Of a stretch of DNA of 64,000 nt, positions 5,374-19,866 are shown one piece after another. The notes beneath the pieces were generated by a model. It had not been told where the DNA came from. It saw only the letters and a list, made by a program, of their open reading frames with translations, and made no database searches. The position numbers and the translations under genes are program-made. This DNA is from Streptomyces sp. NBC_00376 (GTDB taxonomy: Bacteria > Actinomycetota > Actinomycetes > Streptomycetales > Streptomycetaceae). Location: contig NZ_CP107960.1 of NCBI RefSeq assembly GCF_036077095.1, forward strand, positions 6,820,001 to 6,884,000, given 5' to 3'. Every line of letters starts with the position of its first letter. Positions within the stretch are counted from its first letter, which is position 1.

Positions 5374-6273
5374 GTGAGGATCAAGCGCACCACCCCCCTC
5401 AGCGGCACAGCGAGACGTACCAGGGTCGTCGCCATCGCCGCGGGCCTCGTCGCCGTCGCCGCCCTCGCCGTCCCCAGCGCCCAGGCAGACACCAACACCA
5501 CTTTCAGCGCCGCGCAGCTCTCCGCCGCGAGCGACGCCGTGCTCGGCGCCGACGTGGCGGGCACGGCGTGGAACGTCGACCCGGTGAGCAAGAAGCTCGT
5601 GGTCACCGTCGACCGCACGGTTTCGAAAGCCGAGATCGAACAGATCAAGCAGTCCGCCGGGGTCAACGCCGGCGCCCTGAAGATCGAGCGCACCACCGGA
5701 AAGTTCAGCAAACTGCTCTCGGGCGGCGACGCGATCTACGCCCCCGGCTGGCGCTGCTCCCTCGGCTTCAACGTCCGCAGCGGCAGCACCTACTACTTCC
5801 TGACCGCCGGTCACTGCACCGACGGCAACCCGCCCTGGTACACCAACTCGTCGAACTCGACCAGCATCGGCCCGACGGTCGGCTCCAGCTTCCCGACCAA
5901 CGACTACGGCCTGGTCCGGTACGACAACGCCGCGGTCGACCACGCGGGCACCGTCGGGAGCGTCGACATCACCGGCGCGGCCAACGCCACGGTCGGCATG
6001 TCCGTCACTCGCCGCGGCTCCACCACCGGCATCCACAGCGGTTCCGTCACGGGCCTCAACGCCACCGTCAACTACGGCGGCGGCGACATCGTCTACGGCA
6101 TGATCAAGACCAACGTCTGTGCGGAGCCCGGCGATTCCGGCGGTCCGCTCTACTCCGGTTCCAAGGCGATCGGTCTCACCTCCGGCGGCAGCGGCAACTG
6201 CACCTCCGGCGGCACCACGTACTTCCAGCCGGTCACCGAGGCGCTCAGCGCGTACGGGGTCAGCGTCTACTGA
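5374..6273 (+). CDS. sprB: Secreted serine protease, streptogrisin B-like
   Basis: 299 residues, the same length as the SGPB precursor. Residues 1-38 are a signal peptide (hydrophobic core then SAQA), about 39-114 a propeptide ([20 protein letters not shown]), and the mature chymotrypsin-fold enzyme starts near LSGGDAIY (115-122). Catalytic triad His147 (TAGHC), Asp177 (NDYG) and Ser255 (GDSGGP); cysteine pairs at 128/148 and 249/276 as in the family. Secreted, auto-activating general protease. GTG start with GGAGG eight bases upstream. Monocistronic: terminators precede and follow it. Similarity to SGPB is very high from memory; the symbol is assigned on that basis. Confidence 0.92.
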
Positions 6274-6486: not shown

Positions 6487-6966
6487 GTGAAACGCATCGG
6501 AGTGACCGGTCATCGCACCATTCCGCAGGAGGCCCACGCCCATGTGCTCGCGGGGTTACGGGCGGCGCTCTGCGGCCACGAAGGCGCCCTGGAGGCCCTC
6601 TCCAGTCTGGCGGTGGGGGCGGACCAGCTCTTCGCCGACCTCGCCCTGGCCCGCGGCGCCGACCTGACGGTGGTGATCCCGAGCGGCGACTACGAGTCCT
6701 GCTTCGAGGACGCGGCCGAACTCGCCCGCTACCGGGCCCTCAAGGACCGGGCGGTGCGGGAGGTCCGGCTCGACTACCCGCACTCCACCGACGAGGCGTA
6801 CTACGCGGCAGGCGCGTACATCGCCGACCACTGCGACCGGCTGCTCGCGGTGTGGGACGGCAGGCCGGCCCGTGGCCTCGGCGGCACCGGCGACATCGTG
6901 ACGTACGCCCGCAGCCTGGGCCGCCCGGTCACGGTGATCTGGCGCGAGGGCGTGGAGCGGAGCTGA
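6487..6966 (+). CDS. SLOG-like Rossmann nucleotide-binding protein
   Basis: 159 residues. Begins MKRIGVTGHRTI, the glycine-rich TGHR loop typical of SLOG/DUF1273-type Rossmann proteins. It continues with SLAVGADQLFADLALARGADLTVVIP, a conserved acidic Glu/Asp stretch (SCFEDAAELARYRAL), and the terminal CDRLLAVWDG and GGTGDIVTYARSLGRPVTVIWR. Such proteins are thought to bind nucleotides or nucleotide-derived ligands; enzymatic activity is not established for this branch. GTG start at 6487; the upstream AGGGGG is a weak ribosome site. The leucine codon at 6556-6558 is TTA, rare in Streptomyces and dependent on the bldA tRNA. It converges with a SLATT membrane protein, a known partner class of SLOG domains in nucleotide-signalled conflict systems. 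Confidence 0.7.
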   Translation: MKRIGVTGHRTIPQEAHAHVLAGLRAALCGHEGALEALSSLAVGADQLFADLALARGADLTVVIPSGDYESCFEDAAELARYRALKDRAVREVRLDYPHSTDEAYYAAGAYIADHCDRLLAVWDGRPARGLGGTGDIVTYARSLGRPVTVIWREGVERS

Positions 6967-7044
6967 CGGCCGGTCCGGCCGCCCGGCATCCGCGTCGCGC
7001 GGGGTCGGCCGCCGATGCGGCCGTCCTGCATCACTGACGTTACG

Positions 7045-7971
7045 TCACATCTGGTGCCGGGCAAGCCAGTCGGTGTGCTGCGGGGAGACGATGCGCTCGG
7101 TCTCGAAGACCGCGCCCGGCCACTGGCGCTCGGTCAGTGTGGTCTCCATCGCCACCTGCATCGCCTCGAGGTCCTGCTCCACCAGGGAGTGGGCCGAGAT
7201 CAGCGGGTGGTGACGGCGCATCTCGCTCCACGCCAGGCAGGCGGCCGCCGCCGCCGACAGCACCCCCGTCAGGGCGAAGGACTGGGTGACGGAGAACGTC
7301 CGCAGCAGGGCGAACACCAGGGCGAGCGCGGTCAGCGCGGCGATGGTGGTCGACCAGGCCAGAGTGGCCCGCCGGGACACCTCCTGGCGCCTGCGATACC
7401 AACTTCTCTGCTCGATAAGGCGGTCACGCACGTACGTCTCCTTGCGTACGGTGAACGCTTTGTCCCGTAACTCGCGCATCGATTCGGTGATCAGCCCGCC
7501 CGAATCGGCCGTCAGGTCGCGAGGATCGGCCCACCCCACTTTGCGCAGCTCCTGAAGGCCCTCTTCGAGACGGTTCGCGAACACCGCCTCCGGGTGCTGG
7601 GTACCGGTGTCGAAAGGCGATCCATGAACCGAGTAACGCCAGCACATCGACTTGATGAACTCTGCCGCCGAGCGGTTGAGTTGCCAATGCGACTTTGCTT
7701 TGCGCCGGGCGGAGAGGTACGTCGTGATCAGGACACCCAGGTAGGCCAACACGCCTGCGGCATCGGTGAGTTGAAACGTGTCACCCAGCTCGGCGTGCCA
7801 GGGGACGGCGGCGGGCAGTGCCCCTGCGACCAGGAGTATCAGTTGGATGCGGGTGGTGTTCACGGCCTCCCGCTGCCTTGCGATGGCGATCTCGTCCGTG
7901 TGGTGAAAGAGCGCCGGCAGATCGGCGTTCCTGAAGACCATGCTCTGGAGCGGCCCGGGAAGCGCCGTCAT
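7045..7971 (-). CDS. SLATT-domain (DUF4231) membrane protein
   Basis: 308 residues from the ATG at 7971 (GGGAG five bases upstream; an in-frame GTG at 7977 sits inside that site). Two two-helix membrane units are visible. The first is IQLILLVAGALPAAVPW plus AGVLAYLGVLITTYL (about 42-86), followed by the diagnostic AEFIKSMCWRY motif. The second, after RLIEQRSWYRRR, is LAWSTTIAALTALALVFALL plus ALTGVLSAAAAACLAW (about 205-248). DUF4231/SLATT proteins are proposed pore-forming effectors in systems with SMODS, SLOG or TIR sensors. It contains a TTA leucine codon at 7468-7470 (RELRDK). Transcribed divergently from the fxs genes and convergently with the SLOG-like gene. Function in this host is inferred only from domain class and context. 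Confidence 0.78.
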   Translation of the reverse strand: MTALPGPLQSMVFRNADLPALFHHTDEIAIARQREAVNTTRIQLILLVAGALPAAVPWHAELGDTFQLTDAAGVLAYLGVLITTYLSARRKAKSHWQLNRSAAEFIKSMCWRYSVHGSPFDTGTQHPEAVFANRLEEGLQELRKVGWADPRDLTADSGGLITESMRELRDKAFTVRKETYVRDRLIEQRSWYRRRQEVSRRATLAWSTTIAALTALALVFALLRTFSVTQSFALTGVLSAAAAACLAWSEMRRHHPLISAHSLVEQDLEAMQVAMETTLTERQWPGAVFETERIVSPQHTDWLARHQM

Positions 7972-8196
7972 GTTCACTCCCGTCTGCGGTTATGTCGTCA
8001 CCTGAATGGCGGAATCAGGGGTTCCGTTCGATTCGGGACGGCCTTGTGTGACGCTCTCGTTCCAAGTGGCCGTCCTCAGTTGCCAACCGAGGCCATGAGA
8101 GTAAAGTCGTGCCGCCGGACCTGCAATGGTGCAGATACTGTTGCTGCATTCCTGTCCGGAACCATTCCATCGGAACAAATCCCCTCAAGGACGGCC
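7972..8196. promoter_or_regulatory. Divergent intergenic region between SLATT gene and fxsA
   Basis: 225 bases of visibly lower GC content separating two outward-facing genes, so promoters for both must lie here. It contains CAATGGTGCAG and a nearby GCTGCATTCC, and two GGAAC words near 8159 and 8172. I could not define convincing -35/-10 pairs. AAGGA at 8187-8191 is the ribosome site for fxsA. Confidence 0.5.
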
Positions 8197-8364
8197 GTGA
8201 ACACCTCAGAATCCACCCTCTCCTTCGCCGTTGCGAAGAGGAACCGTGTGCCGCTCGCCCAGATCGATGTCCGCGGCACTGCTGCTGCCCGGAAGCTCGG
8301 CCGCGTGCACGCCGTGTCAGCCGGTCGCCCCACCCAGGCATCGACCTTCAACTCGGCACTCTGA
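8197..8364 (+). CDS. fxsA: FxSxx-COOH RiPP precursor peptide
   Basis: 55 residues from the GTG at 8197 (AAGGA five bases upstream). It ends in STFNSAL, so the last five residues FNSAL match the defining FxSxx-COOH terminus: Phe51, Ser53, two free residues. Leader-like part: VPLAQIDVRGTAAARKLGRV. In this family the radical SAM enzyme FxsB joins Phe to the residue two positions on (Ser53), making a three-residue cyclophane; that chemistry is established for characterised relatives, not shown here. Encoded immediately before fxsB (67-base gap). Short and easily missed by gene callers. The mature product and any leader peptidase are unknown. Confidence 0.85.
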   Translation: MNTSESTLSFAVAKRNRVPLAQIDVRGTAAARKLGRVHAVSAGRPTQASTFNSAL

Positions 8365-8431
8365 AATCAACCCGCCCAACACCTCGTGAACCGCGCTCCG
8401 AGCACCCCTTCGGGCTGGCTAGACTGGTGGA

Positions 8432-10678
8432 ATGACAGGACCCCTGGTCCCTTTCCGTGAAGTCGTTCTCAAGGTTCACAGCAGGTGCGATCTTGCTTGT
8501 GACCATTGCTATGTCTATGAACATGCAGATCAGAGCTGGCGAACCCGGCCCAGGACAATCTCTGATGATGTCATTTTCCGGACTGCTCAACGCTTGGCCG
8601 AGCATGCCAAGGCACATGCACTGCCCTCCGTGTCAGTGATCCTGCACGGAGGGGAGCCTCTACTGGCGGGGCCCGCCCGATTGCGGCGAGTCTGCGAAGT
8701 GCTCACCTCCGCCTTCGACGGCGTCGCGGAACTCGACCTCCGCATCCACACCAACGGACTCCAGCTCAGTCCGCGGTATCTCGACCTCTTCGACGAGTTC
8801 AACGTCAGGGTCGGCATCTCCCTCGACGGCGACCGGGCCGCCAACGACCGGCACCGCCGCTACGCGGACGGGCGCAGCAGTCATCCCCTGGTCCTCAAGG
8901 CCGTGGAACTGCTCCGGCAGGAGCGCTACCGCCACCTCGATCTCGGGCTCCTGTGCACCGTCGACATCGAGAACGACCCGATCGCGGTCCTCGACGCGCT
9001 CACCGAGCTCGATCCGCCGCTCATCGACTTCCTGCTCCCGCACGCCACCTGGGACGATCCGCCGCCACGTCCGGACGGTTCGCCCACCGCCTACGCCGAA
9101 TGGCTCCTCGCGGTCTTCGACCGCTGGCAGGAGCAGGGGCGTCCGGTGCCGGTGCGGCTCTTCTCCTCGGTGCTGTCCACGCTGAGCGGCGGCCCCAGCC
9201 TCACCGAGTCCCTGGGGCTCGCCCCGACCGATCTGGTCGTCGTCGAGACCGACGGCCAGCTGGAGCAGGTCGACTCGCTCAAGAGCGCCTACGAGGGCGC
9301 CGCGGCCACCGGCTTCGACGTCTTCACCCACACCTTGGACGAGGTGGCGGCCCACCCCGGGGTGCGGGCCCGTCAGCTCGGGCTGGCCGGTGTCAGCGAG
9401 ACCTGCCGCAGCTGTCCCGTCGTGCGCTCGTGCGGCGGCGGGCTCTACACCCACCGGTACCGCTCCACCGGGCCGTCCGGCGAGTTCGACAACCCGTCCG
9501 TGTACTGCGAGGACCTGGCCGCCCTGGTGCGCGGCATCGAGGCGCGCACGGCGGCCTCCCTCGTCGCGCCCGAGATTGCCGACCCGGTCGAGCTGGCCGC
9601 CTCCCAGCGAGAGCTCACCCGCATGCTGCTGGCCCGGCTGAACGCCGACGTCGAGGAGCACGGCGACGAGCGGTGGGTCCGGGCCTGGGAGCTGGCCGCC
9701 GCCATCGAGGCCGACGAGGAGGGGGCCCGCGGCCTGGACGAGGTGCTGGCCCACCCGTACACCCGCACCTGGCTGCTCCGTGCCCTGGAAGCGCTCCACG
9801 ACGAACGGCCGGGGGCGGTTGAGCACGCGCTGCGACTGCCGGCTCATCTCGCGGCCGCCGCCGTACGGGCCGGCCTCGACATCCCCGTGGGGGTGGGCTA
9901 CGCGGACGGCAGGCTGGTCCTTCCGGGGCTCGGCGAGTTGCGGATCGGGGGAGCGGGGGGGCGCGGCACGGCGCTGGTGCGCGCCGTCGAGGACGGCTTC
10001 CTGGTCCGGCGGGACGAGGGCGACCCGGCCGAGTGGCGGGTGGCGCCGACGGCGGCCGGTCCCGGCTGGCGGCCGGTGCGCCGGCTCTCGGTTCCCGGCG
10101 CCGCTTCCGGCCCGGTGCTCGACCTGGCGATCGACGACCTCGACCCGTACCGAGACTGCTTCGCCGCGCCGGCTTCGGCCGCGCTCGACGACCGGGCCGC
10201 CGCGGAGCTGGTGGCCAGGATCGGCGACGCCTGGACGCTGATCGTGGCGAAGGCGCCGCTGCGGGCCGCGGAGATGGCGGGGCGCCTCACCACCCTCACG
10301 CCGCTCATCGGTCCCGCCGCGGCCGAACCCGCCGTGGGGCGGCACGGCTACGGCGCGCTGGGCATCGTCGCGGACGGCAGTGCCGAGGAGTTGGCGCTCG
10401 CGCTGCTGCGCGGATCGCGGCGGGCCGAATTGCAGGCGCTGGCCGATGTCACGGATCTTTACGCGGCGGACGGCGCCTGGGAACATCGAATTCCCTGGCA
10501 GGAAGAACCAGTTCCGTTTTCCCGTTTGCTGGCCGAGACCTATGAACGGATGGCGTTGAGCGCATTCGAGCCACGCTGTCTGGAGGGCGTACCACAGGCC
10601 CTCGATACGCTGGAGGGTGCCGCCGAGCTCACCGTCAGCGGAAAGCGGCTGCTGGATCTGATGCGAAAAGAGATCTGA
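8432..10678 (+). CDS. fxsB: Radical SAM/SPASM maturase with inactive metallohydrolase-like extension
   Basis: 748 residues. Radical SAM cluster Cys19-x3-Cys23-x2-Cys26 (RCDLACDHC), SAM-binding HGGEPLL at 72-78, SPASM domain with Cys325, Cys328, Cys334 and Cys359 (CRSCPVVRSCGGG). The remaining half, about 375-748, resembles the HExxH peptide-modification family but I find no HExxH, matching the 'inactivated metallohydrolase extension' form described for FxsB. Expected reaction: SAM-dependent Phe-to-Ser cyclophane formation on FxsA. Start ATG 8432 has GGTGG immediately before. Both ends of the gene are less GC-biased than the middle (for example 8450-8600 and 10450-10560), a possible trace of an accessory origin. 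Next gene fxsC lies downstream on the same strand. Confidence 0.92.
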   Translation: MTGPLVPFREVVLKVHSRCDLACDHCYVYEHADQSWRTRPRTISDDVIFRTAQRLAEHAKAHALPSVSVILHGGEPLLAGPARLRRVCEVLTSAFDGVAELDLRIHTNGLQLSPRYLDLFDEFNVRVGISLDGDRAANDRHRRYADGRSSHPLVLKAVELLRQERYRHLDLGLLCTVDIENDPIAVLDALTELDPPLIDFLLPHATWDDPPPRPDGSPTAYAEWLLAVFDRWQEQGRPVPVRLFSSVLSTLSGGPSLTESLGLAPTDLVVVETDGQLEQVDSLKSAYEGAAATGFDVFTHTLDEVAAHPGVRARQLGLAGVSETCRSCPVVRSCGGGLYTHRYRSTGPSGEFDNPSVYCEDLAALVRGIEARTAASLVAPEIADPVELAASQRELTRMLLARLNADVEEHGDERWVRAWELAAAIEADEEGARGLDEVLAHPYTRTWLLRALEALHDERPGAVEHALRLPAHLAAAAVRAGLDIPVGVGYADGRLVLPGLGELRIGGAGGRGTALVRAVEDGFLVRRDEGDPAEWRVAPTAAGPGWRPVRRLSVPGAASGPVLDLAIDDLDPYRDCFAAPASAALDDRAAAELVARIGDAWTLIVAKAPLRAAEMAGRLTTLTPLIGPAAAEPAVGRHGYGALGIVADGSAEELALALLRGSRRAELQALADVTDLYAADGAWEHRIPWQEEPVPFSRLLAETYERMALSAFEPRCLEGVPQALDTLEGAAELTVSGKRLLDLMRKEI

Positions 10679-10912
10679 GGGTCGAATTCCGGTTCGGCCG
10701 AAGGGTCGGAACACACGGGACAACTGGGAGGAACAGCCGCAGACCGAATTCGATCAAGGAAATGTTCGGCGGAACCTGGGAACGTATGACTGAAAACCGG
10801 CGTTGAATGACCGAACGCCATGGGGGTGGAGCAAGGTCCGCTCCGGAATGATGAATTCGCTCGCATTCACTTCAGTCCCCGGATGCGGGTGCTCACACAG
10901 GACGGGGGTCGT

Positions 10913-12244
10913 GTGCACGCAACAACGCAGCAGCGAGCGGCGGACCATCGGCCGTACTTCTTCTTGAGTTATGCCCATACACCGGGCTACGGCCGTGGAA
11001 CCGACCCGGATATGTGGGTCGAACGCCTCTTCAAGGATCTCTGTGACCATGTACTGGCCATGACGGATCTGCCCGCGGGCGCGCCCGCGGGGTTCATCGA
11101 CCGCGAGATACGCTCCGGCGAGGGCTGGTCGGAACGGCTCGGTGAGGTGCTCGCCACCTGCCGGGTGTTCGTTCCGCTGTTCTCGCCGCGCTATTTCGCG
11201 AGCGAGATGTGCGGCAAGGAGTGGTACGCATTCGCCCAGCGCGCCATCCATCACCGCGCCCGCTCCAACCAGCGGGCCGAGGCGATCGTCCCGGCCCTCT
11301 GGGTCCCGGTACCCCCGAGCCAACTCCCCGGCCCCGCCGAGCGATTACAGTTCAACCACCGTGATTTCGGGGACCGTTACGTCAGTGACGGACTCTACGG
11401 GCTGATCAAACTCCGGCTCTTCGCCGAGGAGTACGAGCGCGCGGTGTACGAACTCGCCAAGCGCATCGTCAACGTCGCCGACACCATAAGGATCGGCACC
11501 GGCCGCCCCGTCGACTACCGGCTGGCGCCCAGTGCCTTCGGCCCGCCCAACAGCTCGATGGGCGGCCCCCGTCCGATGCAGGTCACCATCGCCGCCGCCA
11601 CCCGGCACGACCTGCCCGCCGGACGCAGTGCCGACTACTACGGAGACAGTCCGCAGGACTGGAACCCCTACCACCCGGCCGCCGCCCGGCCGCTGGCCTA
11701 TGTCGCCGAGGACCTGGTGCGCTCCCTCAACTACCAGGCGACCATCTCCTCCTTCGACGAGGAGACCGGGCACGGAGAAGGCAAGCAGCCGCCCAGCAGA
11801 CCGGAGATCCTGCTCGTCGACCGCTGGGCCCTGCAGGACGAGGACCGGTGCCGGCGGCTCGCCGCCTTCGACGCCGAGAACCGCCCCTGGGTGACGATGA
11901 TCGTGCCGTGGAACCGGGAGGACCACGAGAGCATGGCGGCCGAGGCCGAACTGACCGAGAAGCTCGAACAGACCATGCCGACCAAGATGCGCCAGGGACG
12001 GGCCTACTGCCGGGCCGCCGCCAAGGGCGTCCCCAGCATGGAGGCCTTCGGGCAGATCCTGCCGCAGGTGGTCGAGGTGGCGGCCCAGCAGTACCTGAGA
12101 CACGCGGCGGTGTACCCACCCGCCACCGGAGGCGGTCACACCGAACGGACACGGCTGATGGGGCCGATGGCGCAGACGAACTACATCCCCGAGACACACG
12201 ACCCTGCGACGGATGCGGAGGACACGGATGACGGCCAGTCGTGA
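10913..12244 (+). CDS. fxsC: TIR-domain protein FxsC
   Basis: About 443 residues from the GTG at 10913, preferred because AGGA and GGGGG lie just upstream and the product starts right before the TIR fold. In-frame starts at 10820 (ATG) and 10883 (ATG) lack clear ribosome sites. The TIR domain opens with PYFFLSYAHTPG and includes EGWSERLGEVLATCRVFVPLFSPRYF and SEMCGKEWYAF. The Glu in CGKEW (about residue 103) occupies the position of the catalytic Glu of NAD-cleaving TIRs, so enzymatic activity is possible. The C-terminal part (from about 220) carries PMQVTIAAATRHDLPAG and WVTMIVPWN, the FxsC-type tail. Contains a TTA codon at 11345-11347 (bldA-dependent). Overlaps fxsT by 17 bases. Confidence 0.85.
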   Translation: MHATTQQRAADHRPYFFLSYAHTPGYGRGTDPDMWVERLFKDLCDHVLAMTDLPAGAPAGFIDREIRSGEGWSERLGEVLATCRVFVPLFSPRYFASEMCGKEWYAFAQRAIHHRARSNQRAEAIVPALWVPVPPSQLPGPAERLQFNHRDFGDRYVSDGLYGLIKLRLFAEEYERAVYELAKRIVNVADTIRIGTGRPVDYRLAPSAFGPPNSSMGGPRPMQVTIAAATRHDLPAGRSADYYGDSPQDWNPYHPAAARPLAYVAEDLVRSLNYQATISSFDEETGHGEGKQPPSRPEILLVDRWALQDEDRCRRLAAFDAENRPWVTMIVPWNREDHESMAAEAELTEKLEQTMPTKMRQGRAYCRAAAKGVPSMEAFGQILPQVVEVAAQQYLRHAAVYPPATGGGHTERTRLMGPMAQTNYIPETHDPATDAEDTDDGQS

Positions 12245-15200
12245 CGGGCGCATCGTCACCTTCTACTCGTACAAGGGCGGCACCGGCCGCACCATGGCCC
12301 TGGCCAACACCGCCTGGATACTCGCCGCCAACGGGAAACGGGTACTGGCCGTCGACTGGGACCTGGAGGCACCCGGGCTCCACCGGTTCTTCCACCCGTT
12401 CCTCGACCCGTCGACACTCGGTGCCACCACCGGCGTCATCGATCTGATCACCGAATACGCGTGGGCCGCGACCAGCCCCGTCCAGCGCGCCGACGACTGG
12501 CACCGCGACTACGCCCGGATCCAGCCGCACGCCGTCTCCCTGACCCCCGAGGCGCTCGGCTGGGAGTTCCCGCAGGGCGGCACGCTCGACTTCGTCTCCG
12601 CGGGACGGCAGAACCGCGAGTACTCCGCGACCGTCTCCACCTTCGACTGGGACAACTTCTACGACCGGCTCGGCGGCGGCCACTTCTTCGACGCCCTGCG
12701 CGACGACATGAAGGCCAACTACGACTACGTCCTCATCGACAGCCGGACCGGCCTCAGCGACATCGCCGACATCTGCACCGTCCACCTCCCCGACGTCCTC
12801 GTCGACTGCTTCACGCTCAGCGACCAGTCCATCGACGGCGCCGCCTCCGTCGCCCGGCAGATCTCCGAGCGCTACACCGGCCGCCCCATCTCCATCTTCC
12901 CCGTCCCGATGCGCATCGACGAGGGCGAGAAGGAGAAGGCGGATGCCGGACGGGCGCTGGCCCGGCTGAAGTTCGACCGGCTGCCGCGCGACCTGTCCGG
13001 GGACGAACTCACCGCCTACTGGGGCGCGGTGGAGATCCCGTACCGCCCCTACTACGCCTACGAGGAGACCCTCGCCACCTTCGGCGACGAGGCCGGTCTC
13101 ACCAACTCCCTGCTCTCCGCCTTCGAGCGGCTCACCTCCGTCATCACCAACCAGCAGATCACCTCGATGCCACCGGTCGGCGAAGAGGTGCGGCTGCGCA
13201 TCCGGGACGCGTTCACCCGGCGCAGGCCGGCGCTGCCGGCCGATCTCTTCCTCAGCTATGTGGCGGAGAACCGGATGTGGGCCGACTGGATCGAGTCCGT
13301 GCTCACCCGGGCCGGGTTCCGCGTCGTGCCGCGCGACGTGTCCGCCCAGCGGGAGAACGTGGAACAGGCGCCCGCCGAGAGCGCCGCCCGTACCGTGGTG
13401 CTGCTCTCCAGCGCCTACCTCAAGTCCCAGCGCGCGGTGAACCTCTGGGACCGGGCCGTGGCGGAGGACCCCGGCGGCGGCCGGCGCCATCTGCTGCCAC
13501 TCAGGGTCGGTGACGTACGGCTCTCCGCGCCCTACATCGACCGCAACCCCGTCGACCTCTTCCGGCTCGACGAGGTGCACGCCGCCGCCGCCCTGCTGCG
13601 CGCCCTGGACCGGCCCGTACAGCTCACCGACGCGGTGTCGCCCGGACCGCGCTTCCCGGGCACCGTCCCCAGGATCTGGAACGCCCCGCCGCGCAACCCC
13701 GGCTTCACCGGCCGCTCCCTGGTCCTGGAACGGATGCGCGACCAGCTCGGCGGCGGCATGGCCGTGGTGCTGCCGCAGCCGCAGACCCTGTACGGGCTCG
13801 GCGGCGTCGGCAAGACCCAGGTCGCCCTGGAGTACGTGCACCGCTTCATGGCCGACTACGACCTGGTCTGGTGGATATCTTCCGAGCAGACCGACGACGT
13901 GGTGGCCGCGCTCGCCGAGCTCGCGGTCCGGCTCGGCGCCCAGGGCGGCGACGACATGGCGGCCGCCTCCCAGGAGGCCGTGGACCTGCTGCGCCGGGGT
14001 GTTCCCTCGGACCGCTGGCTGCTGGTCTTCGACAACGCCGACGACCCCGAACGGCTCCGCCGCTACTTCCCGCAGGGCGGCTCGGGCCACATCCTGGTCA
14101 CCTCGCGCAACCAGGCATGGTCCCAGCACGGCGACGCGCTGCCGGTCGACGTCTTCCTGCGCGAGGAGTCCATCGAGCACCTCCAGCGCCGGGCCCCGGG
14201 GCTGAGCGACGAGGACGCCGCCCAGGTGGCCACCGCCGTCGGTGACCTGCCGCTGGCCGTGGAGCAGGCGGCGGCCTGGATCGCGGAGACCGCCACCCCG
14301 ATCGACACCTATCTCGAACAGCTGGCCCAGCAGGCGCCCGAGGTCCTGGCGCTCAACCAGCCGGCCGGATACCCGGAGCCGGTCGCCGCGACCTGGAACA
14401 TCTCCATCCAGCGGCTCAAGGAGCGCTCGCCCGCCGCGGTCCGGCTGCTCCAGCTCTGCGCCTTCTTCGCACCCGAGCCCATCTCGGGGAACCTCCTGTA
14501 CAGCAAGGAGATGATCGAGGCGCTGAAGCCGTACGACGCCTCGCTCCAGGAGAAGCTGGTGCTGGGCCGGGTCATCCGGGAGATCGGCCGGTTCGCCCTC
14601 GCCAAGGTCGACCAGGTCTCCAACTCCATCCAGGTGCACCGGCTCGTCCAGGCCGTCATCCGGGCGCAGCTCACCGAGGAGGAGCAGCAGGACGCCCGGC
14701 ATGCCGTCCACCGCATCCTGGCGGGCGCCCGGCCCGACGACGACGAGCCGATCGACAACCCCTCGACCTGGCCGCAGTTCGCCACCATCTGGCCGCACCT
14801 CGGCCCGTCCGACGCGCGCAACTGCAAGGAGCCCGAGGCCCGCAGGCTGCTGATCGACCGGGTCCGCTACCTCTGGAAGCGCGGTGACTTCCGGACCGCG
14901 ACGACGGTCTGCGAGGAGCTGCGCGAGATCTGGCGTCAGACGCTGGGGGAGCGGGACATCCAGTACCTCTACCTCTGCTTCCACCTCTCCAACATCTACC
15001 GCTCGCGCGGCCGTTACGTGGAGGCCAGGGAGCTCGACGAGATCACCCTGGCGACACAGCGGGAGGTCCTGGGCCCGGAGCATCCGCACACGTACATGAG
15101 CACCAGCAGCCTGGCGACCGATCTCGGCACGCTCGGGGAGTACACCAGGGCGATCGAGCTGGCGACGGAGGCCACCGACGGGTTCAACCAGATCTTCCAC

Positions 15201-16157
15201 GAGTCGCACCCGAGGACGCTGGCCGCGGCCAACAACCTGGCTTTCACCCTGCGGTCCATCGGCCAGTACGCCAAGGCCCGCGAGATCGACCAGGACGTCT
15301 TCGACCGGCGCGTCGAGGTGCTCGGCGCGGAGCATCCCTACAGTCTCTCCTCGGCCATGAACCTGGCCCGTGACCTGCGGGACGTCGGACGGTACGAGGA
15401 CTCGGTCGGCATCCTCAGCCGTACGTACGACAGCTACAAGGCCACGCTCGGCAGGGCCTTCCCGGGCACGCTGAGCGCGGCGAAGAGCCTCGCGGTGTCG
15501 CTGCGCCGAGCGGGCAGACTGGAGGACGCCCGCAGGCTCACGGTGGCCACCCGGTCCAGGTACCGGGCCAAGTACACCTCCGCCAACCCGGAGTCGCTGG
15601 CCTGCGATCTCAATATGGCGGCCGACCTGTTCGCGGCCGGTGAGGCGACTGAGGCCAGGGACACCGCACAGGAGGTCGTCGACCAGTACATGAAGGTGCC
15701 GGGGGAGAAACACCCGTACACCCTGGCCGCGCTGAACAACCTCGGCGTCTACCAGTCGGGGGCCGGCGCTTCCGAGGAGTCGGTGCGGGTGCTGACCAGG
15801 GTGGTCGCCTCGATGCGGGAGGTGTACGGGCCGGAGCACCCCAACACCCTGTTCTGCGTGATGAACCTGGCGAACGCGACGGCGGAGCGGGGCGATCTCG
15901 ATCTGGTGCTGGAGACCGAGGAGAAGGTGTCCGGGCAGCTCAGGAGGGTACTGGGGGCGCATCACCCGGAGACCCTGGCCATGACGTCGAACATGGCGGT
16001 CACGCTCGACGCGATGGGGCGCAAGGACGAGGCGCTGCGGCTGAGGACCGAGACGGTCGAGGAACTGGCCCGTCAGCTCGGTGACGACCATCCGATGACC
16101 CGGATCGCCCGGGACGACGACCGGTTCGAGCGCGAACTGGAACCGACGGCGGTGTGA
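12228..16157 (+). CDS. fxsT: FxSxx system ParA-like/TIR/NB-ARC/TPR protein
   Basis: 1309 residues from the ATG at 12228, chosen over 12213 because GGAGG sits six bases upstream. Domains in order are as follows. First is a ParA/MinD-like ATPase with deviant Walker A YKGGTGRT (about 15-22, Arg where Lys is usual) and VLAVDWDLEAPG. Second is a TIR-like domain, about 340-455 (ADLFLSYVAENRMWADWIE), whose expected catalytic Glu region reads AVNLWDRAV, apparently without the acidic residue. Third is an NB-ARC NTPase with P-loop YGLGGVGKTQVALEY (about 521-535), LLVFDNADD, ILVTSRN and GDLPLAVEQAAAW. Last are many TPR units, about 885-1290, each with NLA and ALG/HP repeats. It is a STAND-type signalling ATPase that probably senses or scaffolds the RiPP system. 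Confidence 0.88.
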   Translation: MTASRDGRIVTFYSYKGGTGRTMALANTAWILAANGKRVLAVDWDLEAPGLHRFFHPFLDPSTLGATTGVIDLITEYAWAATSPVQRADDWHRDYARIQPHAVSLTPEALGWEFPQGGTLDFVSAGRQNREYSATVSTFDWDNFYDRLGGGHFFDALRDDMKANYDYVLIDSRTGLSDIADICTVHLPDVLVDCFTLSDQSIDGAASVARQISERYTGRPISIFPVPMRIDEGEKEKADAGRALARLKFDRLPRDLSGDELTAYWGAVEIPYRPYYAYEETLATFGDEAGLTNSLLSAFERLTSVITNQQITSMPPVGEEVRLRIRDAFTRRRPALPADLFLSYVAENRMWADWIESVLTRAGFRVVPRDVSAQRENVEQAPAESAARTVVLLSSAYLKSQRAVNLWDRAVAEDPGGGRRHLLPLRVGDVRLSAPYIDRNPVDLFRLDEVHAAAALLRALDRPVQLTDAVSPGPRFPGTVPRIWNAPPRNPGFTGRSLVLERMRDQLGGGMAVVLPQPQTLYGLGGVGKTQVALEYVHRFMADYDLVWWISSEQTDDVVAALAELAVRLGAQGGDDMAAASQEAVDLLRRGVPSDRWLLVFDNADDPERLRRYFPQGGSGHILVTSRNQAWSQHGDALPVDVFLREESIEHLQRRAPGLSDEDAAQVATAVGDLPLAVEQAAAWIAETATPIDTYLEQLAQQAPEVLALNQPAGYPEPVAATWNISIQRLKERSPAAVRLLQLCAFFAPEPISGNLLYSKEMIEALKPYDASLQEKLVLGRVIREIGRFALAKVDQVSNSIQVHRLVQAVIRAQLTEEEQQDARHAVHRILAGARPDDDEPIDNPSTWPQFATIWPHLGPSDARNCKEPEARRLLIDRVRYLWKRGDFRTATTVCEELREIWRQTLGERDIQYLYLCFHLSNIYRSRGRYVEARELDEITLATQREVLGPEHPHTYMSTSSLATDLGTLGEYTRAIELATEATDGFNQIFHESHPRTLAAANNLAFTLRSIGQYAKAREIDQDVFDRRVEVLGAEHPYSLSSAMNLARDLRDVGRYEDSVGILSRTYDSYKATLGRAFPGTLSAAKSLAVSLRRAGRLEDARRLTVATRSRYRAKYTSANPESLACDLNMAADLFAAGEATEARDTAQEVVDQYMKVPGEKHPYTLAALNNLGVYQSGAGASEESVRVLTRVVASMREVYGPEHPNTLFCVMNLANATAERGDLDLVLETEEKVSGQLRRVLGAHHPETLAMTSNMAVTLDAMGRKDEALRLRTETVEELARQLGDDHPMTRIARDDDRFERELEPTAV

Positions 16158-16211: not shown

Positions 16212-17087
16212 TCATTCGGCGGGCGGTTCCAGCAGCCAGTTCAGGATCCTGGGCAGCGCGTGCAGCGCGTCGAAGTGCGCTGCCGCCGGTTCCACCACGA
16301 CGGTGGAGTTCGGGATGCGTTCGGCCAGCCAGCGCGAGTGGCCCACCGGGGAGAACACGTCCTTCTCGCCGTGCCACAGCAGTACGGGGCTCGTGATGTC
16401 CGCAGGGTCGAACCCCCACGGATTGCTGAACGCGAGCGCGTCGTCGATCCAGCCCCAGGCCGAAGTGCGCAGCCCCTCACGGTAGTTGCGCAGCAGCATG
16501 GTGCGGACCCCGGCGTCGTTGACCACCATCCGGTCGGAGTCGGTCAGCTCCCGGCGCAGATCGTCGATGAGCTGGACCGGGTTCCTCCTGATCACCGCGG
16601 ACCGGGAGATGAACGACTCCGCGAGCCCGTCCGGATCGGCCGTCGCCGTGGAGTACGCCAGCACGTTGGAGGCGGCCATCCCGTCGAACCAGTCGAGACC
16701 GTCGGCCCCCCGGGGGGCCAACGCGACCAGTGCGGCGGTGCGGGTCACCCGCTCGGGCATCAGCGCCGCGCAGGCCAGGGCATGCGGGGCACCACCGGAG
16801 CGGCCCACCACGGCGAACCGTTCGAGCCCGAGGTGGTCGGCGATGGCCCGTACGTCCTGAACGGCATCGGCGACACAGCGGCCCGGCAGCCGGTCGGACT
16901 CGCCGTAGCCCGGCCGGTCGTAGGTGATGAGCTGGGTCTTGCGCTGGTACAGGACCATGCCGCGCGGAGCCGGACCGAGCCTGCTGCCGGGCATCCCGTG
17001 CAGCAGGAAGACCGGTCTGCCGCGAGGATCCCCCCGTCGCTCCACCACCAGATGCCGCCCGTCCACCGCGCGCACCCGACTACGCAC
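16212..17087 (-). CDS. Alpha/beta-fold hydrolase
   Basis: 291 residues. Oxyanion-loop FLLHGMPGSR, nucleophile elbow GRSGGA with Ser97, acid in HGEKDVFSP, and the histidine in AAAHFDAL near the C-terminus: a complete triad. No signal peptide, so cytoplasmic. The long DGLAESFISRSAVIRRNPVQLIDDL region is the cap domain. GTG start with a textbook AAGGAGG site eight bases upstream. Single gene, convergent with fxsT. It resembles proline-iminopeptidase-like and epoxide-hydrolase-like Streptomyces proteins, but the substrate cannot be told. Confidence 0.85.
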   Translation of the reverse strand: MRSRVRAVDGRHLVVERRGDPRGRPVFLLHGMPGSRLGPAPRGMVLYQRKTQLITYDRPGYGESDRLPGRCVADAVQDVRAIADHLGLERFAVVGRSGGAPHALACAALMPERVTRTAALVALAPRGADGLDWFDGMAASNVLAYSTATADPDGLAESFISRSAVIRRNPVQLIDDLRRELTDSDRMVVNDAGVRTMLLRNYREGLRTSAWGWIDDALAFSNPWGFDPADITSPVLLWHGEKDVFSPVGHSRWLAERIPNSTVVVEPAAAHFDALHALPRILNWLLEPPAE

Positions 17088-17386: not shown

Positions 17387-17884
17387 TCAGGCGGCTCGGG
17401 TCAGTCCTTCGGCGCCCGCCTTCGCCGGTGCCACGCCGAAGATGTCCACGGCGTGGTAGTACGTCCATGCCGTGCTGTTGCACGCGGTGAGCTTCGCTCC
17501 GGAGTAGGCGGCGCATACGCGCTTGAGGTCCGAGTAGAACGCGGAGTCGATGCGCGACTTGTTGGCGTCGAAGGTGCCCGCCGCCTTGTAGTTGCGGTAG
17601 CCGAAGTCGTGGCGGGCGCAGGCGGTCTGGAAGGGGAAGCCGAACGGGTTGTCGGGCGAGCTGCTGCAGTAGTCCGTCGACCAGTCGAAGCCGTACGCGG
17701 ACCAGGCGCCCTGGTTGTTGCGGGCGGAGTTCCAGGCGTTGTAGCTGGAGAGGCTCGTCTGGGTCCAGGAGCTGAGGACCTGGGGTTTGTCGGCAGGGGC
17801 TGCCGAGGCGGACGCGGCAGGGAGCAGGACGAGGGGGAGCGACAGAGCGGCCGTGGCGAGCGGGACGGTGAATCGGCGACGCAT
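17387..17884 (-). CDS. Secreted prokaryotic phospholipase A2
   Basis: 165 residues from the ATG at 17884 (GGAGG six bases upstream; the open frame extends further but without that site). Signal peptide 1-28 (RRR, hydrophobic core, ASASA). The mature part matches the Streptomyces PLA2 fold: catalytic His92-Asp93 in ACARHDFGYRNY and a second Asp113 in RIDSAFYSDL, the same 21-residue His-to-Asp spacing as in the S. violaceoruber enzyme. Four cysteines at 73, 89, 124 and 135 can form two disulfides. Releases sn-2 fatty acid from phospholipids outside the cell. Calcium dependence is expected from the family. Monocistronic, ended by a strong hairpin. Confidence 0.9.
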   Translation of the reverse strand: MRRRFTVPLATAALSLPLVLLPAASASAAPADKPQVLSSWTQTSLSSYNAWNSARNNQGAWSAYGFDWSTDYCSSSPDNPFGFPFQTACARHDFGYRNYKAAGTFDANKSRIDSAFYSDLKRVCAAYSGAKLTACNSTAWTYYHAVDIFGVAPAKAGAEGLTRAA

Positions 17885-17996
17885 GAGCAACCTCCGCAAT
17901 AAGAAAGGGAGTTGTGCTGAACGTGCTCCTCGTGGTCTCACGAGATCGTTCAGCATGATGCCATGCGTCCCCGACGCGTAGGGGCTGTCCGGTGGA

Positions 17997-18509
17997 TCAG
18001 GGCGCCTTCGACTCCAGGTGGTAGGTCGTGTCGACCCAGAAGCCGTTCGTGGCGGCGGCCTTGATCTCCAGCACGTACTGACCGGGGGTCAGTGGTTCGA
18101 AGCCGCCCCAGATGCCCCAGGCGTAACGCTGGGTCAGCCCGGTCCGGAACGGTGCGGTGAACTCCTGCAAGGACAGCGGCACGCTGTTGAGCGAGGCCGT
18201 GGCCTCCGTGGCCGTCATGCGCTGGGGAATCCTCGAGTACGACCGGGGGTGCTGCATGTTGAGGACGGGGAAGAAGACCGGCCGGTCCGAGGGGATCGCG
18301 CAGCGCCGCACCACCCGCCCGCCGTAGGTGCCGGCCAGGAACCAGAGGTCGTCCGGCTGGTTCCAGGCGGCGTGCTCACCCGTCGTGTCCCTGACCGGGC
18401 TCCGGTCGTCGGGCGCGGACAGGGCCCACTGCCACCACCGGCCCGCGAGCGCCCCGCCCTCCTCGTTGTTCGGCTTCCACATACGCTCCGCCGGTCCTGC
18501 TCCGCTCAT
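17997..18509 (-). CDS. Conserved hypothetical protein
   Basis: 170 residues, not assigned to a family by me. No signal peptide or membrane helix. Tryptophan-rich: RWWQWALS near the start, WNQPDDLWFLAGTYGG, then VRRCAIPSDRPVFFPVLNM and a C-terminal beta-rich part (YAWGIWGGFEPLTPGQYVLEIKAAATNGFWVDTTYHL). The final segment looks like an immunoglobulin-like or jelly-roll beta domain. Start ATG 18509 has GGAGA nearby. It stands alone between the phospholipase gene and the VWA/MoxR cluster. Confidence 0.65.
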   Translation of the reverse strand: MSGAGPAERMWKPNNEEGGALAGRWWQWALSAPDDRSPVRDTTGEHAAWNQPDDLWFLAGTYGGRVVRRCAIPSDRPVFFPVLNMQHPRSYSRIPQRMTATEATASLNSVPLSLQEFTAPFRTGLTQRYAWGIWGGFEPLTPGQYVLEIKAAATNGFWVDTTYHLESKAP

Positions 18510-18621
18510 GACGACTCTCCCACGTGCAGCCCCGGGCTACGGGGCCTGATTCGAACAAGCGGACAGTACCCGGGGTGGTGCACCGGGCCGGACGAAGGGG
18601 TGACGGCGAACGCCCGGAGCC

Positions 18622-19866
18622 CTACCGGGCCGTGGGAACCGCCCCGATGAGCACCGTGCGTGCCCACTCGGGCGGGGAGTCCGGGACGTAGTACGGATCG
18701 TCCTCGTCCCGCAACCGGGGGAACAGGCCCACCACCGTCCGGCACGCCGGCTGTGCACTCGGCCAGGGGGTCTGGCCGTCCGTCAGGACCACGACGACAT
18801 CGGGCCTCGGCTGCGTCCGCAGGGCCCTGGCGAAGCCCGAGCGCAGATCCGTGCCCCCGCCGCCCACCAGCGGGATTCCCTCGGCACGGCACAACGGGTG
18901 CGCGACCCTGGCCGCCGCGTCGCACGGGAGGACGGTGATCAGGTCGCGACGGCCGCCGACCGCGCGGGAGATCGCGGCGACCTCCAGGAGCGCGCTGCCC
19001 AGTTCGGTGTCGCTGACCGAAGCGGACGTGTCGATGACCACGCTGACCCGGGGCGGCCTGCGCCGCAGGCTCGGCAGAACGGCACCGGGCACACCGGCCG
19101 AGCGCCGCGAGGGGCGGCCGTACGTGTAGTCCTCGCCCGCGCCGGACCCGGAGGCGGCCGAACGGACCGCCGCACCCAGCAGCTCCCGCCACGGCTGCGG
19201 CGGGTGGAACGCCTCCTCGGCCCACCGCCGCCACCCCTTCGAGGCGCTCCCCGGACGGCCGGTGATGCCCTGCGCCACCCGGAACCGGACCGCGTCCCGT
19301 TCCTGCTCGCTCAGGCCGTGCGCGCCGTCCGGCCCCAGGTCCCACTCCCGATCCAGCCCGTCGGCGCCACTGCCACAGTCCAGCCAGGCCAGGTGCTCCG
19401 TATGCGGCCCGAGCCTGAACTGGCGCAGGTAGTCCTCCATGAGCTGCCCCTCGGGGAGCCCCAGGAAGGCCGGACCGACGGCACCCTCCGGCCGGACCAG
19501 CCCCTCGCCGAACACGTCGTCGTTGATCTCGCAGTCGGCGGCGATGTTCATCCGCAGCCGTTCGGCGGGACCGGTCAGCCCCTGCTGCCGCGCGACCCGG
19601 TCGCTGCGCCCGTGGTGGTCGCGCAGCAGGTGCGACACCTCGTGCACCCACACCCCGGCCAGTTCCTCCTCCGGGGTCCGGTCCACGAAGCCGGGCGAGA
19701 CGTAGCACCGCCAGTGCCGGTCGACGGCCATCGTCGGTACCCGCCGCGACTCCACGACGCGCAGGGCGAACAACGCCGTCGCCAGGTAGGGGCGGGCCCG
19801 GACGGCCTGCAGCCGGGCGGCGAAGAGCTTGTCGAGGTCCAGCGCCCCCGGCGCGTCGGGTGTCAT
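18622..19866 (-). CDS. Zincin-like/VWA protein (DUF2201 type)
   Basis: 414 residues. The N-terminal putative metallopeptidase has zinc motif HEVSH (75-79, in WVHEVSHLLRDHH) and the helper stretch NIAADCEIND. The C-terminal von Willebrand A-like domain has a MIDAS motif DTSAS (279-283, in VVIDTSASVSD), a second part GGGGTDLRSGF and VVVLTDGQTPW. DUF2201-type proteins pair with MoxR ATPases, and here the start codon overlaps the MoxR stop (ATGA). Cytoplasmic. Likely a metal-dependent adaptor or protease remodelled by the ATPase; substrate unknown. The third gene upstream is part of the same operon. Family assignment is confident, activity inferred. Confidence 0.85.
   Translation of the reverse strand: MTPDAPGALDLDKLFAARLQAVRARPYLATALFALRVVESRRVPTMAVDRHWRCYVSPGFVDRTPEEELAGVWVHEVSHLLRDHHGRSDRVARQQGLTGPAERLRMNIAADCEINDDVFGEGLVRPEGAVGPAFLGLPEGQLMEDYLRQFRLGPHTEHLAWLDCGSGADGLDREWDLGPDGAHGLSEQERDAVRFRVAQGITGRPGSASKGWRRWAEEAFHPPQPWRELLGAAVRSAASGSGAGEDYTYGRPSRRSAGVPGAVLPSLRRRPPRVSVVIDTSASVSDTELGSALLEVAAISRAVGGRRDLITVLPCDAAARVAHPLCRAEGIPLVGGGGTDLRSGFARALRTQPRPDVVVVLTDGQTPWPSAQPACRTVVGLFPRLRDEDDPYYVPDSPPEWARTVLIGAVPTAR

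Follow-up and report, generated by a model that had tools for sequence, protein, structure and literature searches.

A SLOG–SLATT gene pair travels with fxs cyclophane peptide genes in Streptomyces and suggests a peptide-linked signalling or defence circuit

Introduction

Do the peptide genes, the immune-type sensor genes and the membrane effector gene that lie side by side in Streptomyces sp. NBC_00376 act together, or do they merely share an address? The stretch analysed here (the window; 64,000 nucleotides, part of contig 1 of the 10.0-Mb genome) carries an fxs locus, comprising the precursor peptide gene fxsA, the radical S-adenosylmethionine (SAM) enzyme gene fxsB, the TIR protein gene fxsC and the STAND ATPase gene fxsT, next to a pair of genes encoding a SLOG-like and a SLATT protein. 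A preliminary description of this DNA had proposed that all of these, together with NAD or nucleotide signals, belong to one circuit, such as phage defence or a self-recognition system, and had allowed that the linkage of SLATT and SLOG to fxs might be fortuitous. Radical-SAM cyclophane peptides are known from enzymology; to our knowledge, no cellular role has been established for those of the FxS type. Here we report that the SLOG–SLATT pair recurs with fxs across the genus, at several chromosomal sites and beside strongly diverged fxs genes. A recurrent pair that travels in this way suggests that the peptide genes, the immune-type sensor and the membrane effector of Streptomyces form one signalling or defence circuit.

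Part of this locus has a precedent. In the available sections of Kaur et al. (2020, eLife; PMC7159879), FxSxx peptide systems are coupled to AP-ATPases, including a standalone system with an inactive MinD/ParA-like domain, and the processed peptide is predicted to be a toxin or a signal. That standalone system shares with the window an FxSxx precursor, a radical SAM/SPASM enzyme and an AP-ATPase with TIR, TPRs and a MinD/ParA-like domain. The cassette described here differs from it in adding the SLOG–SLATT pair and an alpha/beta hydrolase, and its metallopeptidase-like HExxH part is degenerate; no counterpart of the zincin-like metallopeptidase gene of the published system was found among the scanned cassette open reading frames (ORFs), except for the degenerate FxsB extension. 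Within the same available text, SLATT and SLOG are mentioned outside the FxSxx section only, be it elsewhere in the body or among the references. The fxsA, fxsB and fxsT core is already covered by that work, and what is new is the recurrent, exchangeable SLOG–SLATT partner of fxs systems. We take the pair to be a new partner because its coupling to fxs was not found in the literature searched, which omitted most subscription papers.

Results

Gene content of the cassette

The cassette is laid out in the window as follows.

6487–6966, + strand: SLOG-fold protein, 159 amino acids (AlphaFold model with structural matches, conserved motifs)
7045–7977, − strand: predicted membrane effector with SLATT_3 and SLATT_1 domains, 310 amino acids (Pfam and NCBIfam profiles, hydropathy)
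7978–8196, no strand: intergenic region of 219 bp between the divergent SLATT and fxsA genes (computed spacing)
8197–8364, + strand: fxsA, precursor peptide of 55 amino acids with a GTG start, ending in STFNSAL (FxSxx-COOH) (TIGR04268)
8432–10678, + strand: fxsB, radical SAM/SPASM predicted cyclophane synthase with an inactivated beta-hydroxylase extension (FxsBH) (TIGR04269, NF040587)
10820–12244, + strand: fxsC, TIR protein with putative catalytic Glu134 and a C-terminal FxsC domain
12213–16157, + strand: fxsT, 1314 amino acids, with a KGGTGR ParA-like domain, a degenerate TIR, an NB-ARC STAND ATPase and TPR repeats (NF040586, NF047398, Pfam domains)
16212–17087, − strand: alpha/beta hydrolase, a constant neighbour of FxsBH (PF00561, 76.1 bits)

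This agrees with the preliminary description, which had placed fxsA (with its FNSAL end), fxsB, the TIR gene fxsC and the ParA-like/TIR/NB-ARC/TPR gene fxsT on one strand, at the positions confirmed here. It had also described SLATT as diverging from fxsA and a SLOG-like protein as converging on SLATT, an arrangement upheld by the coordinates, the SLATT profiles and the SLOG model. The hydrolase is an additional cassette gene beyond the coordinates covered at that stage. The convergent SLOG and SLATT genes are separated by 78 bp, fxsT overlaps fxsC by 32 bases, and an alternative internal start of SLATT is possible near 7941. FxsA, FxsB, FxsC, FxsT and both SLATT domains exceeded curated Pfam and NCBIfam cut-offs; further NCBIfam matches among the window proteins were TIGR04276 (242.4 bits, cut-off 55) and NF040588 (235.5 bits, cut-off 130).

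SLOG and SLATT co-occur with fxs across the genus

We determined the distribution of the pair and of FxsBH in 150 Streptomyces genomes. SLATT (E 1e-30) had a match in 44 genomes, of which 42 were orthologue-like (45–100% identity), and the remaining two matches, 29 and 32% identical, were unlinked. SLOG (E 1e-25) matched in 50 genomes, with identities of at least 51% in exactly the 42 SLATT genomes, and a search of the same sample with the Pfam SLATT_3 profile returned 46 matches at E <1e-30, i.e. the 42 and four others. Full-length FxsBH was present in 48 genomes: 41 of the 42 that bear SLATT versus seven of the 108 that do not (contingency table 41 / 1 / 7 / 101, Fisher p 2.5e-28, shared descent uncorrected). 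FxsB was located within 10 kb of SLATT in 40 of the 42 genomes, at a gap of ≤ 6.6 kb. The 40 include the only SLATT genome without FxsBH (G156), in which the pair adjoins an fxs locus with a short FxsB; in G176, an FxsB fragment terminates the contig with SLATT, and the main match to FxsB begins at the end of another contig.

The linkage was also seen from the side of FxsB. Among the best 80 of 344 FxsB relatives in named Streptomyces genomes, 76 have SLATT, either upstream (54) or across an inverted operon (22); the four without it are L111, which retains SLATT and SLOG fragments, L123, L129 (a contig end) and L131. Wherever window-type SLATT and SLOG fell into one fetched stretch, the two genes were convergent (98/98 loci) and in 96 cases < 400 bp apart, and at L205 SLOG lay outside the fetched stretch. 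The preliminary description had asked whether SLATT and SLOG accompany fxs more often than the genomic background would predict, and the counts in the genus answer that they do.

The pair occupies several sites and probably moved between fxs lineages

Comparison of up to six flanking genes per side at 14 representatives (L217 had no comparable flanks) revealed one site shared by the window, L036, L079 and L140, and a second shared by L149 and L234; L038, L039, L041, L051, L197, L233 and L239 have flanks common to none of the others. In total, fxs and the SLOG–SLATT pair are found together at about eight chromosomal sites, and the pair also stands beside three much diverged fxs loci. At L233, the window order SLOG/SLATT/fxsA-B-C-T is maintained though identity is only 49% for FxsB, 30% for FxsC and 39% for FxsT. 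At L234, the pair is found at the opposite end of an A-C-T-B operon, and at L239/L248 (G071, contig C16) it stands beside AAC(3)-like and MoxR-type genes; a complete fxs operon is nearby, its short FxsB lying at a distance of 18.7 kb. The last locus is a supercluster of ∼20 kb that holds fxsA-B-C-T, a TIR protein, MoxR-type AAA genes, the AAC(3)-like gene and SLOG–SLATT.

In the SLATT tree, the window-type proteins formed one group (100/100), and the SLATTs of the short-FxsB loci L197, L233 and L234 grouped with those of the FxsBH loci L051, L149, L205 and L217 (100/100). The FxsT tree, in contrast, split FxsBH loci from short-FxsB loci (100/99), with the L233 FxsT as a long branch of unsure placement. 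This discordance makes a transfer of the pair from one fxs lineage to another probable, an outcome that would not arise from synteny alone.

A second, short FxsB is encoded in the genome of the window itself (L191, C1:2920100–2940001) and is followed by an FxsT-like protein (31% identical); among the genes labelled in that stretch there was neither FxsC nor SLATT.

Empty sites, a scar and partial loci

At the window site, the left border of the cassette is marked by a protease gene.

5374–6273, + strand: S1 protease with alpha-lytic prodomain (PF02983/PF00089)

We found 11 hydrolase homologues without fxs nearby and fetched eight of them for inspection. Seven (L206–L212) retain the protease flank and the hydrolase, and SLOG, SLATT, FxsB, FxsC and FxsT are all missing at the site; one of these seven genomes (G281) carries the cassette elsewhere. 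The ABC-type genes at 26–1815 of the window recur in several empty sites. At L213 (G154), a scar at about 10140–10440 joins SLOG residues 13–71 directly to FxsT residues 1273–1314, which looks like a one-step natural loss of everything between.

Partial loci were also observed. L123 has kept fxsB and fxsT and lacks fxsC, SLATT and SLOG. At L214 (G177), an orphan fxsT (89% identical; 8657–12583) is accompanied on the SLATT side by a shorter, single-domain DUF4231/SLATT_1 protein (7216–7722), which looks to have replaced the SLOG–SLATT–fxsABC part.

Properties of the SLOG and SLATT proteins

At E 0.1, none of Pfam, NCBIfam and PADLOC returned a match to the SLOG sequence. Its predicted structure (AlphaFold, mean predicted local distance difference test score 95.3) retrieved YpsA as the best PDB match in Foldseek (2nx2, E 2.6e-8), followed by DprA, ShosA and LOG proteins. 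The TGHR motif is present in 91 of 95 aligned rows, the other four being gaps, and the GAD and WDGxPxRGxGGT positions are invariant or nearly so. On this model, the 159-residue protein has a SLOG Rossmann-like fold, and nucleotide binding is predicted.

The SLATT domain reportedly owes its name to a 2015 paper. The window protein was recognized by two Pfam profiles (PF18184, 127.8 bits; PF18181, 120.8 bits) and by NCBIfam SLATT_3 (NF033610, 183.1 bits, cut-off 45) and SLATT_1 (101.9 bits, cut-off 41). Kyte–Doolittle hydropathy peaked above 1.5 at residues 44–64 and 212–251 only. PDB sequence searches with FxsC, SLATT and SLOG profiles returned nothing below E 0.001 (one TIR appeared at E 0.85).

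FxsA, FxsB and the hydrolase

FxsA scored 39.9 bits against TIGR04268 (cut-off 28), and an ORF with an FxSxx end was present near fxsB at 163 of 177 loci. FxsB matched TIGR04269 over residues 8–370 (591.9 bits, cut-off 370); its radical SAM cysteines (CxxxCxxC) are kept in all rows that cover them, and its SPASM cysteines in 168/168. The extension (residues 378–748) matched the 'inactivated' form NF040587 with 437.6 bits and is missing HExxH. Median identity to 104 relatives was 80% for residues 1–370 versus 51% for residues 378–748.

To relate this extension to SLATT type, HExxH was sought anywhere beyond residue 370 in the 168 rows whose FxsB has 600 or more amino acids, SLATT being judged within the fetched stretch and some rows representing one genome present in two collections. 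The motif occurred in one of 92 rows with window-type SLATT, in 34 of 35 with a divergent SLATT (described below) and in 25 of 41 without SLATT. Thus, the SLOG–SLATT version of the system goes with loss of the hydroxylase motif. Fused radical SAM/alpha-ketoglutarate-HExxH enzymes beta-hydroxylate cyclophane peptides, according to the available part of PMC12636437; FxsBH shares with them the fusion of a radical SAM enzyme to an HExxH-family domain, the HExxH itself being absent here. The available text on triceptide (three-residue cyclophane) enzymes (PMC11002830) describes a radical SAM/SPASM enzyme and an aromatic-x-Ser motif, both shared by the window. Unlike in those systems, the enzyme gene is here coupled to NOD-like receptor (NLR)-like, TIR, SLOG and SLATT genes, and the product is a predicted one.

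The Ser97/Asp243/His271 triad of the alpha/beta hydrolase is conserved in 151/153/152 of 154 rows, and the gene adjoins FxsBH even at SLATT-less loci; its role is possibly in peptide processing. At many other loci, among them L036, L041, L051, L198, L205 and L217, an AAC(3)-like acetyltransferase gene lies between fxsB and fxsC (PF02522 in both copies scanned). Neither the window nor the loci most closely related to it have this gene, whose substrate might be the peptide.

An alternative is that FxsA gives rise to a secreted antimicrobial or toxin of the ribosomally synthesized and post-translationally modified peptide (RiPP) class, with SLOG/SLATT and the hydrolase conferring self-immunity or aiding release. 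A SLATT membrane protein could confer immunity, and darobactin, a radical-SAM cross-linked RiPP, is antibacterial (PMC9055067, available part). However, a scan of the cassette genes turned up neither an exporter nor a dedicated leader peptidase, the ABC-type genes of the window are also present at several empty sites, and secretion would leave FxsT and FxsC unexplained. We therefore regard a secreted product as very unlikely.

A TIR pair on FxsC and FxsT

Catalytic TIR NADases, which cleave nicotinamide adenine dinucleotide (NAD), carry a C-x-x-E motif. The corresponding glutamate of FxsC (Glu134) is kept in 152 of 159 rows, making FxsC a putatively catalytic TIR for which NAD cleavage is predicted. 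The residue is missing from five of 37 SLATT-less rows and two of 122 SLATT-bearing rows. We made no use of this difference, because each of the five SLATT-less exceptions comes with another FxsC-like gene and because two SLATT loci are exceptions as well.

FxsT matched NF040586 (1036.8 bits, cut-off 300) and NF047398 (150.2 bits), and Pfam located TIR_2 at residues 346–458, NB-ARC at 525–700 and TPR repeats. The NB-ARC P-loop is intact, with K534 in 166 of 168 rows. The ParA-like domain has a deviant Walker A motif, KGGTGR (residues 21–26), whose R26 is present in all 164 rows covering it, and we infer that this change inactivates the ParA-like ATPase. Position 411 of the FxsT TIR is E in 0/168 rows, being L, V, A, F, I, T or M instead. 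Together, the degenerate TIR on the STAND protein and the glutamate-bearing TIR on FxsC are the most specific hint at a mechanism that the sequence provides.

SLATT proteins beyond the window type

Elsewhere in the family, FxsBH loci of other genera often carry a divergent SLATT (26–31% identical) behind the hydrolase, and no SLOG. In a family sample of 150 genomes, 106 strong SLATT_3 genes were found in 77 genomes, and 64 of the 106 lay < 13 kb from FxsB among the matches listed; these distances are upper bounds, a number of lower FxsB rows having been left out. A wider limit of 30 kb, under which 92 of the 106 SLATT_3 genes would pass as linked to fxs, was dropped, as some at 17–25 kb (L241 and L244) are standalone; we rely instead on the 64 genes below 13 kb and on the genus sample. 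Outside the family SLATT_3 is rare, with a match in 10 of 296 genomes of a phylum sample. The divergent SLATT is less faithful to fxs than the window type: L237 has it without fxs, and at L238 it accompanies fxsC-fxsT-hydrolase with no fxsB nearby.

We also read 13 SLATT_3 loci away from fxs (L227–L232, L235, L236, L241 and L244–L247). A gene with a Pfam TIR domain above cut-off was next door or one gene off at four of them (L227, L229, L230 and L235), so that a rule by which SLATT_3 always adjoins TIR had to be discarded; TIR is a recurrent, not a constant, partner of unlinked SLATT_3 proteins. The neighbours at these four loci are TIR proteins with WD40 repeats, or PfkB with a CAP12-type TIR, and the loci are possibly separate TIR–SLATT systems. 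At L228, the protein adjoining the unlinked SLATT has no Pfam match, and a NACHT protein is encoded two genes off.

Neighbouring genes in the window

To the right of the cassette (17387–21137, − strand), the window encodes a prokaryotic phospholipase A2, a DUF2201 metallopeptidase/VWA-like protein and an AAA ATPase. The latter two genes are a possible second two-gene system.

Discussion

We conclude that the SLOG, SLATT, fxsABCT and hydrolase genes very probably constitute one functional unit. Given such a unit, an immune role is slightly favoured over other roles, and the reading as a whole, namely a cassette for NLR-like signalling that is probably immune, appears to us evenly poised.

Several observations weigh against this reading. 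G204 carries SLOG–SLATT with its fxs copy 463 kb distant. In seven of the 150 genomes FxsBH is present and a SLATT orthologue is not, so that SLATT is not required by every fxs system, and 41 of 168 FxsB rows have no SLATT in the fetched stretch; the rows are in part redundant, many coming from close relatives and some from one genome present in both of two collections. L120, L128 and L132 keep SLOG–SLATT–fxsB with no fxsC, fxsT or hydrolase within 9–10 kb downstream, so that the pair can persist in cis after the TIR and STAND genes have gone. Moreover, a gene for a protein of ∼236 amino acids with a hydrophobic N-terminal stretch intervenes between SLATT and fxsB in 17 loci (L065, L069, L071, L083 and 13 more); it is also found at L206, L211, L194 and L123, and in two empty sites it sits between the flanks. 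The pair and the operon may thus have entered the common Streptomyces site separately, and a strictly single insertion at that site is an unsafe assumption. With respect to mechanism, the four transmembrane segments expected at two per SLATT domain are not cleanly visible in the hydropathy profile, L119 and L121, where SLATT is present, have Gln at the FxsC glutamate position, and an E stands one column ahead of the expected FxsT TIR site in 37 of 168 rows. No TIR was detected at the other nine of the 13 unlinked SLATT_3 loci, as judged from one or two scanned neighbours or a TIR-like query, and we know of no phenotype for the cassette.

A rival view is that SLOG–SLATT and fxs are independent modules that share a neighbourhood through synteny or defence-island clustering: the ∼236-residue gene separates the pair from fxsB, L120, L128 and L132 keep the pair without nearby fxsC and fxsT, L237 has kept the divergent SLATT seen in other genera but has no fxs, and some SLATT_3 genes 17–25 kb from fxsB are standalone. 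Yet the same pair is found at diverged fxs loci in about eight contexts and is within 10 kb of FxsB in 40 of 42 genomes, and joint absence, the several chromosomal sites and the discordant trees argue against mere synteny. We consider independence improbable. Chance adjacency, the caveat entered in the preliminary description, is rejected in view of the co-occurrence, the joint absence, the several contexts and the tree discordance.

The unit that we favour resembles known systems only in part. SLATT is described in the available text of PMC9503650 as a predicted membrane effector regulated by ADP-ribose derivatives and located beside TIR genes, with TIR–SLATT pairs in phages; the cassette has in common with these pairs a TIR gene beside SLATT, and the same text describes no RiPP, STAND ATPase or separate SLOG gene. 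PADLOC has no model for the cassette and gave weak or partial matches: FxsB to viperin (32 bits), the ParA-like part of FxsT to PDC-M28B (81 bits) and two others at < 12 bits. Thoeris combines a TIR protein, ThsB, with the SLOG-bearing ThsA. The cassette shares these TIR and SLOG modules, SLOG being a separate small protein here, and neither FxsC nor SLOG matched in PADLOC at E 0.1, hence no ThsA/ThsB homologue was recognized by that test.

How might the unit work? Gene content, motif conservation, co-occurrence, joint absence and tree discordance can be read from the sequences; for the mechanism we draw on the protein families, in which TIR proteins make NAD-derived signals, SLOG reads them and SLATT is an effector. 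FxsB would cross-link FxsA within its FNS motif, joining Phe to the beta-carbon of Ser, a chemistry taken from related enzymes such as MscB, which we presume to belong to the FxsB family. MscB links Phe C4 to Ser C-beta (triceptide review, PMC11002830, available part). The mature peptide would stay intracellular, as the cassette showed no gene for an exporter, and may act as ligand, lock or guarded bait for FxsT, the STAND/NB-ARC ATPase with TPRs. Upon a trigger FxsT would oligomerise, and its TIR, which has no catalytic glutamate, would probably be an adaptor that recruits or activates FxsC. The FxsC TIR would then make an NAD-derived signal, SLOG would bind or turn over this nucleotide, and SLATT would alter membrane permeability, leading to dormancy or death. 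That the steps follow in exactly this order is doubtful. More tentative, and in our estimation rather unlikely, is the specific proposal that cyclophane FxsA licenses or locks the NLR-like FxsT, with the split TIR pair making a nucleotide signal that is read by a SLOG–SLATT output module. If true, it would mean that peptide modification chemistry is wired into bacterial NLR signalling, and that SLOG–SLATT is an exchangeable output module going with loss of the beta-hydroxylase version.

The same unit could instead serve physiological signalling, e.g. in stress, development or mycelial kin recognition, with SLATT tuning the membrane and killing no cells. The cassette occupies one chromosomal site in many Streptomyces, and genus g14 of the family sample has an FxsB above the cut-off in each of its 38 genomes, unlike fast-turnover defence islands; no phage- or mobile-like gene was found among the 18 window proteins that were profile-scanned. 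On the other hand, the patchy distribution (FxsBH in 48 of 150 genomes), the empty sites, the scar, the several sites and the module exchange resemble conflict systems, and the domain set of TIR, NB-ARC, SLOG and SLATT is typical of them. A physiological role seems to us a rather unlikely alternative.

If the reading as an immune-type signalling unit is right, RiPP chemistry would be a component of innate immunity in bacteria, and the predicted pore function of SLATT proteins could be tested in a system that is genetically defined. The cassette would offer a testable circuit, with a peptide as input, an NAD-derived signal as intermediate and a membrane effector as output.

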